From the NCBI GenBank assembly GCA_029932675.1, contig JAOZPP010000078.1, forward strand, positions 1 through 7,121: 7,121 bases of DNA. The letters run 5' to 3'. The DNA comes from a bacterium (lineage in GTDB: Bacteria > SM23-81 > DAOVCL01). Both the position numbers and the translations under genes were made by a program. Under the pieces are notes generated by a model. The model worked only from the letters and a program-made list of their open reading frames with translations. It did no database searches and had not been told where the DNA came from. Position 1 is the first letter of the stretch, and the number at the start of each line of letters is the position of its first letter. This document shows positions 3,015 to 7,121 of this stretch, piece after piece.

Positions 3015-3043
3015 TTGACAGAAAGTGATTTTTGCTTTATATT
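3015..3043 (+). promoter_or_regulatory. Sigma-70-type promoter of the small protein-TPR regulator unit
   Basis: TTGACA (3015-3020), an exact 17-bp spacer and TATATT (3038-3043, five of six matches) form a strong promoter with a start near 3050. It points at the gene starting at 3305, leaving a leader of about 255 nt that holds the strong hairpins at 3131-3220. The activator unit therefore appears to be made by housekeeping polymerase. I found no -24/-12 promoter ahead of it. Confidence 0.7.
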
Positions 3044-3065: not shown

Positions 3066-3072
3066 GTTTACA
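3066..3072 (+). promoter_or_regulatory. GTTTACA heptamer just after the predicted start site
   Basis: This exact GTTTACA copy (context gaGTTTACAga) sits about 16 bp downstream of the predicted start of the 3015-3043 promoter, a position typical of repressor sites. The same heptamer is clustered upstream of the sigma-54 promoter at 6924. If both are bound by the regulator encoded at 3649, that protein would repress its own transcription. This is inference from position. Confidence 0.35.
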
Positions 3073-3130
3073 GAGCTACGGGCTTTTTTTGTTTCCTCAC
3101 ACTTGCCACTTAGGAAAAACTGGATTATGA

Positions 3131-3246
3131 GGTGGCAGAACCCCGATTCTGCCACCACCTGCCTGTGGAGTGCTTATGACTCCTGTCACAGCCTACGTCA
3201 ACAGGAGTTACCACACTCCATACTTGCCGCCAGATTTGGGGTTCTG
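3131..3246 (+). ncRNA. Structured leader region, candidate cis-regulatory RNA
   Basis: Three stems are visible in the leader of the 3305 gene. GGTGGCAGAA (3131-3140) and TTCTGCCACC (3147-3156) form a perfect 10-bp hairpin with loop CCCCGA. TGGAGTG (3166-3172) pairs with CACTCCA (3214-3220), and inside it ACTCCTGT (3179-3186) pairs with ACAGGAGT (3201-3208). In addition CAGAACCCC (3136-3144) is perfectly complementary to GGGGTTCTG (3238-3246), so the first hairpin can be replaced by a long-range closing stem. Mutually exclusive pairings ahead of a ribosome-binding site suggest a switch. Alternatively, this is a small palindromic mobile repeat with inverted ends. It matches no riboswitch class I know. 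Confidence 0.4.
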
Positions 3247-3304: not shown

Positions 3305-3631
3305 ATGGTAAAGAAATCTTTGGTTGGCCTGCTGGTTTTGGTAGTTTTGCTTGGTCCTATTAGTGGCTTCTGGCCAAAGCCAGCGCAGGCCAATACCGGG
3401 AATGAGCGTCGGGTTATGCTCTGCGCCGCCTGGCCGTGGCATGATGAGGGATGGAACAGTGCGACTCCACCTCCACCCTCAAATCAGACCTTATCCTATC
3501 CGTCGGCCAAGAATACCAACTCTGAACACAAATTTGAACTTCAAAAACCTCAGCAGAAACCCTCTCAGTCACCCTGGTTCCTGGTGAAGGTTCTTCTGTT
3601 CAACTTCAGGCTGCTCCTGGGGAGTAAGTAG
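3305..3631 (+). CDS. Small exported protein of unknown function, directly upstream of the TPR regulator
   Basis: This 108-residue product begins with a textbook Sec signal peptide: a Lys-Lys start, a long Leu/Val core (about 5-20), then PISGFWPKPAQA with an AxA-type cleavage site after residue 29. The predicted mature part (about 79 residues) has no recognised domain. It holds one Cys (in VMLC), a Trp-rich patch (AAWPWHDEGW), a TPPPPS run, a Gln/Lys/Pro-rich stretch and a hydrophobic-basic C-terminus (WFLVKVLLFNFRLLLGSK, 91-108) that could be an amphipathic helix. The strong ribosome-binding site at 3291-3298 fixes the start. The stop lies 17 bp before the regulator ATG, so the two genes are surely co-transcribed. 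It could be a signal-peptide precursor, an envelope sensor subunit or a small lipophilic effector. The sequence does not decide. I do not recognise homologues. Confidence 0.65.
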   Translation: MVKKSLVGLLVLVVLLGPISGFWPKPAQANTGNERRVMLCAAWPWHDEGWNSATPPPPSNQTLSYPSAKNTNSEHKFELQKPQQKPSQSPWFLVKVLLFNFRLLLGSK

Positions 3632-3635
3632 GGAC

Positions 3636-3642
3636 GGAGGTG
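3636..3642 (+). promoter_or_regulatory. Ribosome-binding site deciding the regulator start
   Basis: GGAGGTG lies 6 nt before the ATG at 3649. The competing GTG start at 3640 would lie inside this site, which makes it unlikely to be used. Confidence 0.7.
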
Positions 3643-3648
3643 GATAGG

Positions 3649-6456
3649 ATGGAAGCCAGGACAAAGTTACGGGAGGAAAGGACGGCTCTGAGGGAGCTAA
3701 AGGAGAAGATTGAAACCCTTCTCCGGGAGAGGGAATATGCAAAGGTTGTGGAGGAGATAGAGGCTTTCTCCCAGGGGTATACTCCGGAAGACAGGGACCT
3801 GGATTGGGCGGAGCTACAGGTAAGGTTGGCCTTTGCCCAGGAGAAGCTGGGCAGGTATGATAGGAAGACCGCGGAGGCAGCATACGAGGCATTGAGACTT
3901 ACTGATAAGCGTAAGGAAATAGGCACAATCGAGAGAATATTGGGTAGAGAATATTTGGCTTTAGGAGAGACAAAAACTGGCCTCAAGTATTTGAGGAATA
4001 GTCTTACAGAATTTGATACGATAGGGGATAAGAAGGGGAAGCTGGAAACACTTAACGCTTTAGGTAGAGCGTGCTTTATCAGCGGTCGCACAAGGGAGGC
4101 CATTGAGCATCTTACCGAGGCCCTTCACCTCTGCCATCAGAATAAAGGGGATAAGACCCAGGAGGCTATGCTCAGGGGGAATCTGGGAGCTTGCCGGATT
4201 TTCACAGGGCAATGGCCATTGGCCTCTGATATGTTAAGGGAGAGCTTGAAGCTTTATGAGGAGATAGGCGATAGCCTGGAGATTGTCAAGGGATTGATTG
4301 CCCTTGCTCGGTTGCTCATTATGCAGAGGAATTTTGATGAAGCCGAGAGGCTATTACAGAGGGCAGAGGCCTTGAGTCAGGTCTACCCTCGGGAGCTGGC
4401 GATGACCTACGAATCGCTGGGTGACCTGGCCAAAGAGAGGAGTCAGTTTCAGAAGGCCAAGAAGTATTATCAGAGGACGCTGGAGATAGGCAGGAGGATA
4501 GCTCCGCAGGGTGACCTGATCAATCAGGTGCAGCGCAGAAGAGCGGAGTTGCTCATCGCCGAGGGGAAAGATCTCGCACAGGCATCGGCATGCATTAAGG
4601 AAGCCCTCAAGGTCTCTCAATCCCTCGGGGACAGGTTTGAGGAAGGCTGTTGTTATCGCACAATGGGGAGACTCGCTCAGGCCAAAGGCAACTCTAAGGC
4701 TGCAGAGGCCAACTTTGAGAAGGCGGTTGAGGTCTTGCGCTCCCTTGAGGACAGGTTTGAGTTGGCGAATACTCTTTTGGCTCAGGGTGAGCTTACCGGG
4801 AGGGATGACCCCTTGCGGGAAGCCCAGAGGCTCTTTGCCCAAATCCAAGGGGCAGAGTTCTACCAGGCTTTGGCCCTGCTCCAGATTGCTAAGGTGGAGC
4901 CTTCCTTCAAGAAAGCGATAGAGACCTTGGAGGAGGTGGAGAAACTACTGAAGGGCAAGGGAGAGGCTGAGAAGCTGGAGGAGGTAGAAGCCCTAAAACT
5001 TGAGCTTAACCAAAGGCTGAAGAGTTTTCATAACCAAAAATATCAGGTCTTGCAAGGACTATCATCAGAGGATTTGGGAAAGGTCTTTGGCAGGGTAATT
5101 GAGGCGGTAGAGGCAGATAGAGGGTTTGTGGCCTATAGAGGGAATGGGAGGAAGGAAATGGAGGTAGGGGCATCTTGTAACCTCAGTGAAAGGGAGGTGA
5201 AGGGGCTTCTCTCCCTGTTAGCAGACAAGGATGGCTTTGAAGTGGGCAGTCCTTTTATCCTCTATGATAGCTCCCTTGATAAGCGGTTCTCCTCCACAGG
5301 GGCCTATAGCATAATGGTAACACCATTTGGGAATGGGGAAAGGATAGATGGTTACCTGTATGTGGATAGACAAAGGGGCAAGGAGCCTTTTTTGGATAAG
5401 GAGTTTGACCTCTTCTATCTCCTCTCCGAGAGGGTAGCCAAGGCGATAGCCGAGCAGAGGCAAAGGGAGTTGGAGAGGACAAGCCAGGGCTTAATGCAGA
5501 GGCTGGCTGTGCAAGGGGTGGTTCCTGAAGAAATAATCACCCAGAATGAGAAGATGCTTGAGGTGTTGAGGGAAGCGGATAAGGTTAAGGACTCCAAAAC
5601 TGCTGTGCTCATTCAGGGCGAATCGGGCACAGGAAAGGAGTTGGTGGCCCAGAAGGTTCACTTCACCAGTCAAAGAAGCTCCAAAAAAATTATCCCCATA
5701 AATTGTGGGGCCATACCGGATGATCTGTTGGAGGCGGAGCTCTTTGGCTGTGAGCGGGGAGCATTTACCGGAGCTATGCCGCGGAAGGGGTTAATTGAGG
5801 AGGCTAATGGGGGGACACTTTTTCTGGATGAGGTGGGGAATCTCAGTCTCAGACATCAGGCCAAACTCCTGCGGGTGCTGGAAGAGGGGAAGGTCCGCCG
5901 GGTGGGAGGGAACGAGGAGAGGCGTGTAGATGTGCGAGTAATAGCGGCTACCAACAAAGATCTGGCAGAGGAGATAAAGAAAGGAAGGTTCCGGGAAGAT
6001 CTCTACTACAGGCTCAACACGGTGGTGTTAGATCTACCTCCTCTGCGGGAGAGGAGGAATGACATCAAGCTTCTGGCTCAGTATTTTCTGGATATCTATT
6101 CCCGTAAGTTCAAAAAGAACCTGCGGGGCATTACGGAGGAGGCTTTAAAACTTTTGGAGCGCTATCCCTGGCCGGGGAATGTGCGGGAGTTGAAGAACGA
6201 GATGGAAAGGGCAGTGCTGCTTGCCGATGAGGGGGACGAGCTCACCCCCGGTCATCTATCTGAAGAGGTGAAGGTAAGCAAAAGGGGGAGGCAAACATCC
6301 GGTAGGCCGAAAGGAAAACGGGAGCTTACCTTAGAGGCATTAGAGCAGAACGGATGGAATAAGACTAGGGCAGCCCAGTCATTAGGCATCACCCGCCAGG
6401 GGTTGATTAAAAGGATAAAGAGGTTTGGACTGGAGAAGATGGAAGCCCAAACTTAG
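3649..6456 (+). CDS. TPR-GAF-AAA+-Fis sigma-54-dependent transcriptional activator
   Basis: This 935-residue cytoplasmic regulator activates sigma-54 polymerase. Residues about 30-460 are tandem tetratricopeptide helices (for example the [17 protein letters not shown] and [15 protein letters not shown] units), a protein- or peptide-binding scaffold. About 470-605 is a GAF-like sensor domain. The AAA+ domain follows with Walker A GESGTGKE (657-664), GAFTGA (704-709, the sigma-54 contact loop), Walker [11 protein letters not shown] (D727-E728) and the arginine-finger segment [10 protein letters not shown] (R782, R788). A Fis-type helix-turn-helix ends the protein (about 900-930: [20 protein letters not shown]). 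All core motifs are intact, so it should be an active ATPase. There is no receiver domain, so control is not by a classical histidine kinase. A GTG at 3640 is also in frame, but it overlaps the GGAGGTG ribosome-binding site (3636-3642). The ATG at 3649 sits at ideal spacing and is preferred. Likely targets are the 6713-6835 sites. Confidence 0.93.
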
Positions 6457-6493
6457 CCTCCTTTTATCCTGCGAATCCAATATAAAAATTCTG

Positions 6494-6529
6494 TGCCGTC
6501 AGGGCTTCTGCCCTGACGGCATCTTTTTT
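6494..6529 (+). terminator. Strong rho-independent terminator after the regulator
   Basis: TGCCGTCAGGGC (6494-6505) and GCCCTGACGGCA (6510-6521) form a perfect 12-bp GC-rich stem with a TTCT loop, followed by TCTTTTTT. It lies 37 bp after the regulator stop and ends the small protein-regulator unit. Confidence 0.93.
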
Positions 6530-6712
6530 CCCGGGGCCTTCCCCCATATGGCAGACTCAAAGGTGGTAAAACCCTTTTTTATCCAAGTTTAGCTGGTTCT
6601 AATTGGGCATTAGTCCCTTTTGGGGGTCCTGTGACCTATCTACAACATAAGTAAGCTTAAACTAACGGAATTCCATACTAATCCGCCCAAAAGCGGGGTT
6701 GAAACCCCTAAG
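6530..6712. other. Gene-free spacer with one short palindrome
   Basis: There is no gene here. The only structure I see is GGGGTT-GA-AACCCC at 6695-6708, a perfect 6-bp palindromic arm pair that resembles dispersed palindromes elsewhere in the window and ends 5 bp before the first regulator-site heptamer. I find no convincing sigma-70-type promoter, so it is unclear which transcript the terminator at 6891-6922 stops. Confidence 0.4.
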
Positions 6713-6835
6713 TGTAAACTTTTCGGAAGTTTACAGAAGTGTAAACGAAAAATTTTCCACTTGTAACCCCTTTAAAAACAGAGGATTGGAAAATGGAGGG
6801 TTTACAGTTCAACTTTGAGTTTACAAAAGTTTACA
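6713..6835 (+). promoter_or_regulatory. Cluster of six GTTTACA/TGTAAAC sites, likely enhancer (UAS) of the sigma-54 promoter
   Basis: Heptamers lie at 6713-6719 (TGTAAAC), 6729-6735 (GTTTACA), 6740-6746 (TGTAAAC), 6800-6806, 6819-6825 and 6829-6835 (all GTTTACA). The first two form a perfect inverted repeat with 9-bp arms, TGTAAACTT and AAGTTTACA, around TTCGG (6713-6735). The second and third form another, with 7-bp arms around GAAG (6729-6746). The last two are 10 bp apart, one helical turn. The cluster lies about 115-240 bp before the predicted start of the 6924 promoter, the usual place for enhancer-binding activators, and dyads suit a Fis-type dimer. The neighbouring regulator is the natural candidate binder, but binding is inferred. 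Confidence 0.65.
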
Positions 6836-6890
6836 GTAAATCATTACCGCAGGGGTTTGGGGCAGATTTTGTAACTACTTGTGACATAAG

Positions 6891-6922
6891 CCACTTAGGA
6901 ATTTTGCCTAAGTGGTTTTTTT
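6891..6922 (+). terminator. Rho-independent terminator shielding the sigma-54 promoter
   Basis: CCACTTAGG (6891-6899) and CCTAAGTGG (6907-6915) form a perfect 9-bp stem around AATTTTG, followed by seven T residues (6916-6922). It ends 1 bp before the -24 box, so any transcript arriving from the enhancer region is stopped and the downstream gene is left under sigma-54 control. Confidence 0.85.
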
Positions 6923-6923
6923 G

Positions 6924-6938
6924 TGGCACGGAATTTGC
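6924..6938 (+). promoter_or_regulatory. Sigma-54 (-24/-12) promoter reading off the right edge
   Basis: TGGCACGGAATTTGC matches the consensus TGGCACG-N4-TTGC at every conserved base. The -24 GG (6925-6926) and -12 GC (6937-6938) are separated by exactly 10 bp. The predicted start is near 6950. Such a promoter is silent without an AAA+ activator, and one is encoded 470 bp upstream. The regulated gene starts beyond 7121 or very near the edge. Confidence 0.88.
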
Positions 6939-6949
6939 GAATATAAATT

Positions 6950-7121
6950 ATAGTGGGTTATCTTGCTACCCGTAGCTTTGGCAGTCAAGGGATAAGCTTG
7001 TCCCCCCCACTCTATCCAGAGTGGAAAAATATAATGCTGGTCTCTTGCCTACATACTTATAAATTCCTTGCTTAAGCGTCACATTGTTGATAATTTTCCA
7101 GGGTCCCAGGTTAAAGGGAAG
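6950..7121 (+). other. Leader of the sigma-54-controlled transcript, no gene start seen
   Basis: From the predicted start to the window end I see no coding region with a convincing start, so the leader is at least about 170 nt. It contains a near-perfect 16-bp palindrome at 6989-7004 (GGGATAAGCTTGTCCC, one mismatch or T-G wobble) and a CCACTC (7007-7012) to GAGTGG (7019-7024) hairpin with loop TATCCA, followed by an A-rich run. Smaller pairings (GGGT 6955-6958 with ACCC 6968-6971) may add to it. It matches no riboswitch class I can name. Confidence 0.4.

Follow-up and report, generated by a model that had tools for sequence, protein, structure and literature searches.

The 7,121-nt stretch analysed here (the window; contig C76:1-7121 of a 3.03 Mb bacterial genome in 116 contigs, 97% complete) carries a gene for a small exported protein directly upstream of a gene for a sigma-54 activator, followed by a cluster of repeated half-sites and a -24/-12 promoter. 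A first-pass annotation had proposed that these parts form a peptide-linked circuit resembling the RRNPP regulators. The window's genome (G000) was compared with a genome of the same genus (G001) and with two genomes from other families of the phylum. Cassette anatomy, enhancer, promoters and mosaicism rest on sequence comparison, whereas predicted structures cover the proteins of the window and of one further locus (L083); from these we infer the direction of regulation, binding by the tetratricopeptide repeat (TPR) domain and the signal. The features of the locus are as follows.

3015..3043, + strand: sigma-70-like promoter (TTGACA-17-TATATT) of the small-protein/activator operon
3305..3631, + strand: small exported protein, 108 aa (signal peptide ~3305-3391; NTGxERRVMLCAAWPW at 3392-3439; disordered linker; C-terminal helix ~3572-3622)
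3649..6456, + strand: sigma-54 activator, 935 aa (TPR superhelix ~3799-4950; GAF-like ~5029-5463; AAA+ 5533-6297 with GAFTGA; Fis helix-turn-helix ~6331-6426)
6493..6522, + strand: intrinsic-terminator-like hairpin 3′ of the activator
6713..6835, no strand assigned: enhancer of six GTTTACA half-sites (starts 6713, 6729, 6740, 6800, 6819, 6829)
6888..6918, + strand: palindromic terminator CCACTTAGG..CCTAAGTGG, just 5′ of the sigma-54 promoter
6924..6938, + strand: -24/-12 sigma-54 promoter TGGCACGGAATTTGC
6949..7121, + strand: start of the sigma-54 transcript leader, which leads beyond the window to two small exported peptides, a beta-propeller protein and a thioredoxin-like protein (L041)

A small exported protein paired with a sigma-54 activator

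Whether queried with the small protein or with the TPR–GAF half of the activator, the genome returned the same loci. The small-protein profile finds exactly 13 copies, each directly upstream of one of 13 TPR–GAF activators, and no copy in G000 that lacks an activator. The gap between the two genes is 9-24 nt in most copies, and at C33 the two overlap, the activator having a long frame. G001 yielded five matches; four of these precede activators (one with a frameshift, one running off the contig), and the fifth is a truncated remnant with no activator behind it. Every same-genus activator with available upstream sequence has an exported small gene directly upstream. A further copy (L083) lies in a record named Candidatus Zixiibacteriota, the sole named match of a wider contig scan that may omit records very near the window's genome. 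The profile found no relatives in the two other-family genomes, which do carry other sigma-54 activators, some of them very long.

We read the small open reading frame (ORF) as a real protein-coding gene because it has a hydrophobic N-terminus that ends AQA ahead of NTG, a good Shine–Dalgarno sequence and, among paralogues, a ratio of nonsynonymous to synonymous change of ~0.2-0.6 over the mature part (often ~0.15 in the N-terminal motif). Its layout recurs between copies: a signal-peptide helix with small residues at -3/-1 in most of them is followed by NTGxERxxMLxAAxPW, in which A-x-P-W is invariant in all 13 copies of this genome, then by a variable low-complexity linker and an aromatic/basic C-terminal helix. 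Upstream, TTGAC[A/T]-N17-TATxxx is found in 12 of the 13 modules here and in each of the four tested in G001 (expected, 0.03 per 420 nt); this conserved sigma-70-like promoter makes co-expression of the small gene with the activator, and not with the cargo, probable. Dispersed palindromes of the form GAGGTGGCAGAACCCC(G/T)ATTCTGCCACC also occur upstream of small genes and in sigma-54 leaders (window 3130-3160 and many module leaders). One small protein matched NCBIfam Phr_nterm under the cut-off (E 0.057), which we take as chance. By sequence comparison, the small genes show conservation and purifying selection and sit in the activator's operon, and the window holds one of 13 mosaic copies of a switch in one genome; the observation behind the first-pass annotation is real.

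Pfam matches on the window activator comprised TPR_12 (1e-36), Sigma54_activat (PF00158; 3.9e-68, with GAFTGA) and HTH_8 (9.6e-10). GAF was not among the matches listed for this protein and scored above the cut-off at the aligned place in four paralogues. The hallmarks of a sigma-54 enhancer-binding protein are all present, namely an AAA+ domain with GAFTGA, a C-terminal helix-turn-helix, rpoN in the genome, a -24/-12 promoter and dyads upstream of it. Two activators are frameshifted, L009 (C98) and L085 (G001 C161), and may be assembly errors or decaying copies.

Private enhancers, sigma-54 promoters and secreted cargo

GTTTACA occurs eight times in the window against 0.58 expected, a count reached in 0 of 200 shuffles. 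The strongest evidence that it marks an enhancer is an in-register duplicate: five of the six half-sites between the activator and the promoter are repeated at C76:10078-10198, 3.4 kb on, where the flanks have diverged and a second -24/-12 site (10285) again lies downstream. The 20-nt core of this putative enhancer occurs at these two C76 places only in the genome, even with up to three mismatches. Autoregulation through the GTTTACA at 3066 was considered and rejected, as that sequence is also present 5′ of the C9b module, which has a different enhancer; the sites at 2919 and 3066 are for that reason not counted as regulator sites.

The motif TGGCAC-N5-TTGC has a single match in the window, at 6924 (0.01 expected). 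A coding-strand -24/-12 site lies 180-470 nt 3′ of the activator in 11/11 testable loci, C7 and C33 being too near contig ends to be counted; the C104 site is near-consensus, and the C98 promoter seems farther away only because its activator is frameshifted. In most loci, a palindromic terminator similar to that at 6888 stands between activator and promoter. Several points of the first-pass annotation hold: the clear signal peptide, which is conserved among copies; the 17 bp between the small-gene stop and the activator ATG at 3649; the TPR–GAF–AAA+–Fis architecture, with GAF recognized via the four paralogues; and the dyad cluster with a perfect sigma-54 promoter just 3′ of the activator, an arrangement that proves general across loci.

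Enhancers mostly differ between loci. Their similarity is better predicted by the identity of the Fis domains (Pearson 0.66, Mantel p 0.0005) than by that of AAA+ (0.31). C9b and C30, for example, share 79% of their AAA+ domains, with Fis domains only 22% alike and unrelated enhancers. As Fis domain and enhancer vary together, DNA specificity should be readable from the pairs.

The second C76 promoter is followed by an ORF of 57 aa and by proteins bearing type IX sorting domains. Most other loci have the same order of leader, 57-aa ORF and then cargo with Por_Secre_tail, CHU_C or FlgD_ig domains; TIGR04183 scored above the cut-off on two cargo proteins, and PF18962, PF13585 and PF13860 were found on other cargo proteins tested. 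The conserved ORF (MESDDDKKPKPEL...GVWQRILEVLEEEVRKGREEE...DPSDW), cytosolic and of unassigned family, is found between leader and cargo at C76:10580-10711 and at L052-L059. The leader itself (~80-100 nt, GTGTCTCCGCTTGTCCGTGGCTTGGGCGGGCAGGGGAAGCC...) starts about where the sigma-54 transcript is expected to start (L017:7836-7920, L013, L014, L015, L010 and others) and has seven close copies in the genome, each at a module locus. It matched no Rfam family at the gathering threshold, the weak E-value matches looking like chance, and changes in its helices are mostly one-sided, so that covariation support is not claimed.

Some loci have features of their own. The peptides that follow the window's own promoter are tandem small exported peptides (C76:7221-7439 and 7682-7936) ending VV(I/V)CHGWGFTC, with no other occurrence in the genome; the start of the first is hidden by a run of N immediately after the window end. 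In the orthologous modules L038 (C30) and L088 (G001 C115), the apparent product of the sigma-54 promoter is a short structured RNA (GGCGGGT...ACTCGCC); the hairpin 3′ of it differs between the two yet keeps its pairing, and adjacent secreted cargo is absent. The cargo of the G001 C20 module (L086:271-2724) is a peptidase C25 with a type IX sorting tail. Elsewhere in the window are a toxin–antitoxin-like pair (678-1180; a small antitoxin-like ORF and a YafQ/ParE-type toxin, PF15738 1.9e-8) and a MASE9-HD-GYP membrane protein (1250-2563), likely a cyclic-di-GMP phosphodiesterase.

Segment exchange and the likely input

The activators are mosaics. In the window–C46 comparison, identity is low at both ends of the protein (22% over the first 75 residues, 33% in Fis) and in the first TPR half (37%), but reaches 81% in the second TPR half and 82% in AAA+. 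C108 and C109 have identical small proteins and second TPR halves 95% alike. Synonymous divergence jumps alongside segment identity, from 0 to saturation inside one gene, a pattern better explained by recombination than by amino-acid selection. The cassettes thus appear to have exchanged segments, reshuffling inputs (small protein, N-terminus, first TPR half) and outputs (Fis and enhancer).

Private enhancers, recurrent promoters, covariation of Fis with enhancer and type IX cargo lead us to read these loci as sigma-54 cassettes that act in cis, are insulated and serve secreted cargo, with activators built from swapped segments and the small protein as the likely input; we regard this overall reading as probable. 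In the proposed scheme, a sigma-70-type promoter would drive the two-gene operon of a small Sec-exported protein and a TPR–GAF–AAA+–Fis activator. The activator would then bind the private dyads just 3′ of its own gene and turn on its own -24/-12 promoter, giving a transcript that opens with a leader and, usually after the 57-aa ORF, encodes secreted proteins bearing C-terminal type IX tails. At the window locus, this transcript would first encode the two small exported peptides, the propeller and the thioredoxin-like protein, and type IX cargo would be reached via the second enhancer copy. The small protein, produced alongside the activator and apart from the cargo, most likely belongs to the input side, and our working model makes it a ligand or antagonist of the TPR superhelix. 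A nascent or unexported form is more likely to be active than a re-imported one: we infer that the precursor holds the activator until it is exported, and that export relieves it.

The fold of the TPR region is compatible with such binding. The nearest fold to the TPR–GAF model (predicted local distance difference test score, pLDDT, 80; built on two sequences) is LGN/Pins (Z 30), closer than RapI (24.9) and NprR (24.2). All three are groove-type TPRs, which makes binding of an extended segment plausible, and the mature small protein is predicted to be disordered with a C-terminal helix.

Several points weigh against this putative contact between the small protein and the TPR. The TPR–GAF model draws on two sequences, and the AlphaFold2 model of the window small protein is poor (pLDDT 56), with helices at 3-20 and 90-106 only. 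Divergence of the mature small protein does correlate with that of the regulator N-terminus (0.53), the first TPR half (0.42) and the second (0.24), and at <0.1 with AAA+/Fis. We reject this as evidence of co-evolution through binding, since it drops with distance along the gene as linkage would; the GAF value (0.38) is somewhat above the linkage trend. The C108/C109 pair combines its identical small protein with first TPR halves only 48% alike. Gene conversion could yield both patterns regardless of function, and the activator may sense a small molecule through GAF instead.

A possible, though on balance unlikely, alternative is that the small protein works at the envelope, for example as a membrane-active or surface peptide or by helping the cargo, and never contacts the activator, which would sense a metabolite through GAF or another partner through the TPR. 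The GAF domain is present, a conserved signal peptide and a cationic amphipathic C-terminal helix would suit a membrane-active product, and linkage alone accounts for the covariation. Against this, the small gene lies in the activator's operon and not behind the regulated promoter, and no G000 copy stands without an activator.

An RRNPP-like pheromone, in which the small protein would be cleaved after export, brought back into the cell as a peptide and held in the groove of the activator's TPR region, was the proposal of the first-pass annotation, and only part of it survives. The main condition that would have refuted it, activators lacking an exported small gene upstream, did not arise: the gene adjoins all 13 here and every same-genus copy with upstream sequence. 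The Rap and NprR folds also match the TPR, the mature region is predicted to be disordered, and the number of paralogues is comparable to that of Rap–Phr expansions. The expected oligopeptide importer was not borne out: in this 97%-complete genome, neither SBP_bac_5 (PF00496, Opp/Dpp-type; controls matched in 11/14 genomes) nor a POT/PTR2 peptide transporter was found, leaving a single OPT-family transporter, and a returning peptide would also need to cross the outer membrane. Covariation with the TPR does not exceed linkage, and divergent TPRs stand beside an identical small protein. The mature part is conserved as anticipated, with A-x-P-W invariant in this genome and the C-terminal aromatic/basic helix recurring; C-terminal residues vary, and against a pheromone, the best-conserved part is N-terminal, not a variable C-terminal peptide. 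We regard the cassette as well supported, the small protein as a probable input, and the RRNPP route as improbable; an adjacent small exported protein is present in 13/13 copies, and its propeptide nature is putative.

A SecM/VemP-type arrest peptide whose export status sets translation of the activator is very improbable: the signal peptide, position directly upstream, disordered middle and recurring C-terminal segment fit, and arrest peptides of such layout are described as widespread (PMC10987492), but a RAPP/RAGP-like motif is absent from all copies, C-terminal residues vary in the alignments, and occlusion of the activator ribosome-binding site is not general, being in most loci no stronger than in shuffled controls.

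Relation to known systems

The first-pass annotation knew of no described example with this output module, and our literature searches, mostly of open-access papers, likewise yielded no description of a module joining sigma-54, TPR and an exported peptide; the switch looks undescribed. Thirteen parallel sigma-54 channels, each with one activator, one promoter, one cargo and an obligatory exported partner, are natural candidates for orthogonal switches. A broader proposal, which we hold as doubtful, is a Gram-negative-type signalling family in which a TPR sigma-54 activator reads a small protein in its exported or unexported form. Each genome would have 13 insulated channels that evolve by swapping input and output segments, and each channel would control its own type IX cargo. 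If the small protein is the TPR ligand, peptide or export-coupled TPR signalling would extend to this lineage and to an output module for which no description was found, and the choice of which type IX-type surface proteins are made would be accounted for.

With the RRNPP systems (Rap-Phr, NprR-NprX, PlcR-PapR, ComRS), the cassettes share a TPR superhelix regulator adjoining a small exported protein, and multicopy expansion. RRNPP receptors are compact, however, and RRNPP_detector uses a range of 250-500 aa (PMC10075063), whereas here the receptor would be a 935-aa protein with an AAA+ sigma-54 module, the small gene lies upstream, no Opp-type binding protein was found and the lineage is outside Firmicutes; the published large-scale RRNPP survey spanned Firmicutes and viruses only (PMC10075063). 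The monitoring substrates SecM, VemP and MifM are likewise exported small ORFs directly upstream of a regulated gene, and differ in that the small genes here have no arrest motif and occlusion of the downstream ribosome-binding site is inconsistent. LGN/Pins, the nearest predicted fold, are eukaryotic polarity adaptors, and LGN holds long extended segments of partner proteins; the likeness is one of fold only.

Closer relatives are found among sigma-54 activators. A 1738-aa protein of the same genome (C35), read from its sequence as kinase–ATPase–TPR–GAF–sigma-54, has a homologous TPR–GAF–AAA+–Fis half (34% identity over 17-929). Unlike this kinase–AAA–TPR–GAF type, the cassette activators are without N-terminal kinase and ATPase parts and have an exported partner gene instead. 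With the NtrC/NifA/PrdR class they share the GAFTGA AAA+ domain, the Fis helix-turn-helix, dyad enhancers and the -24/-12 promoter, but here these parts form a multicopy mosaic family in which every copy is equipped with a private enhancer and lies next to secreted cargo of its own.

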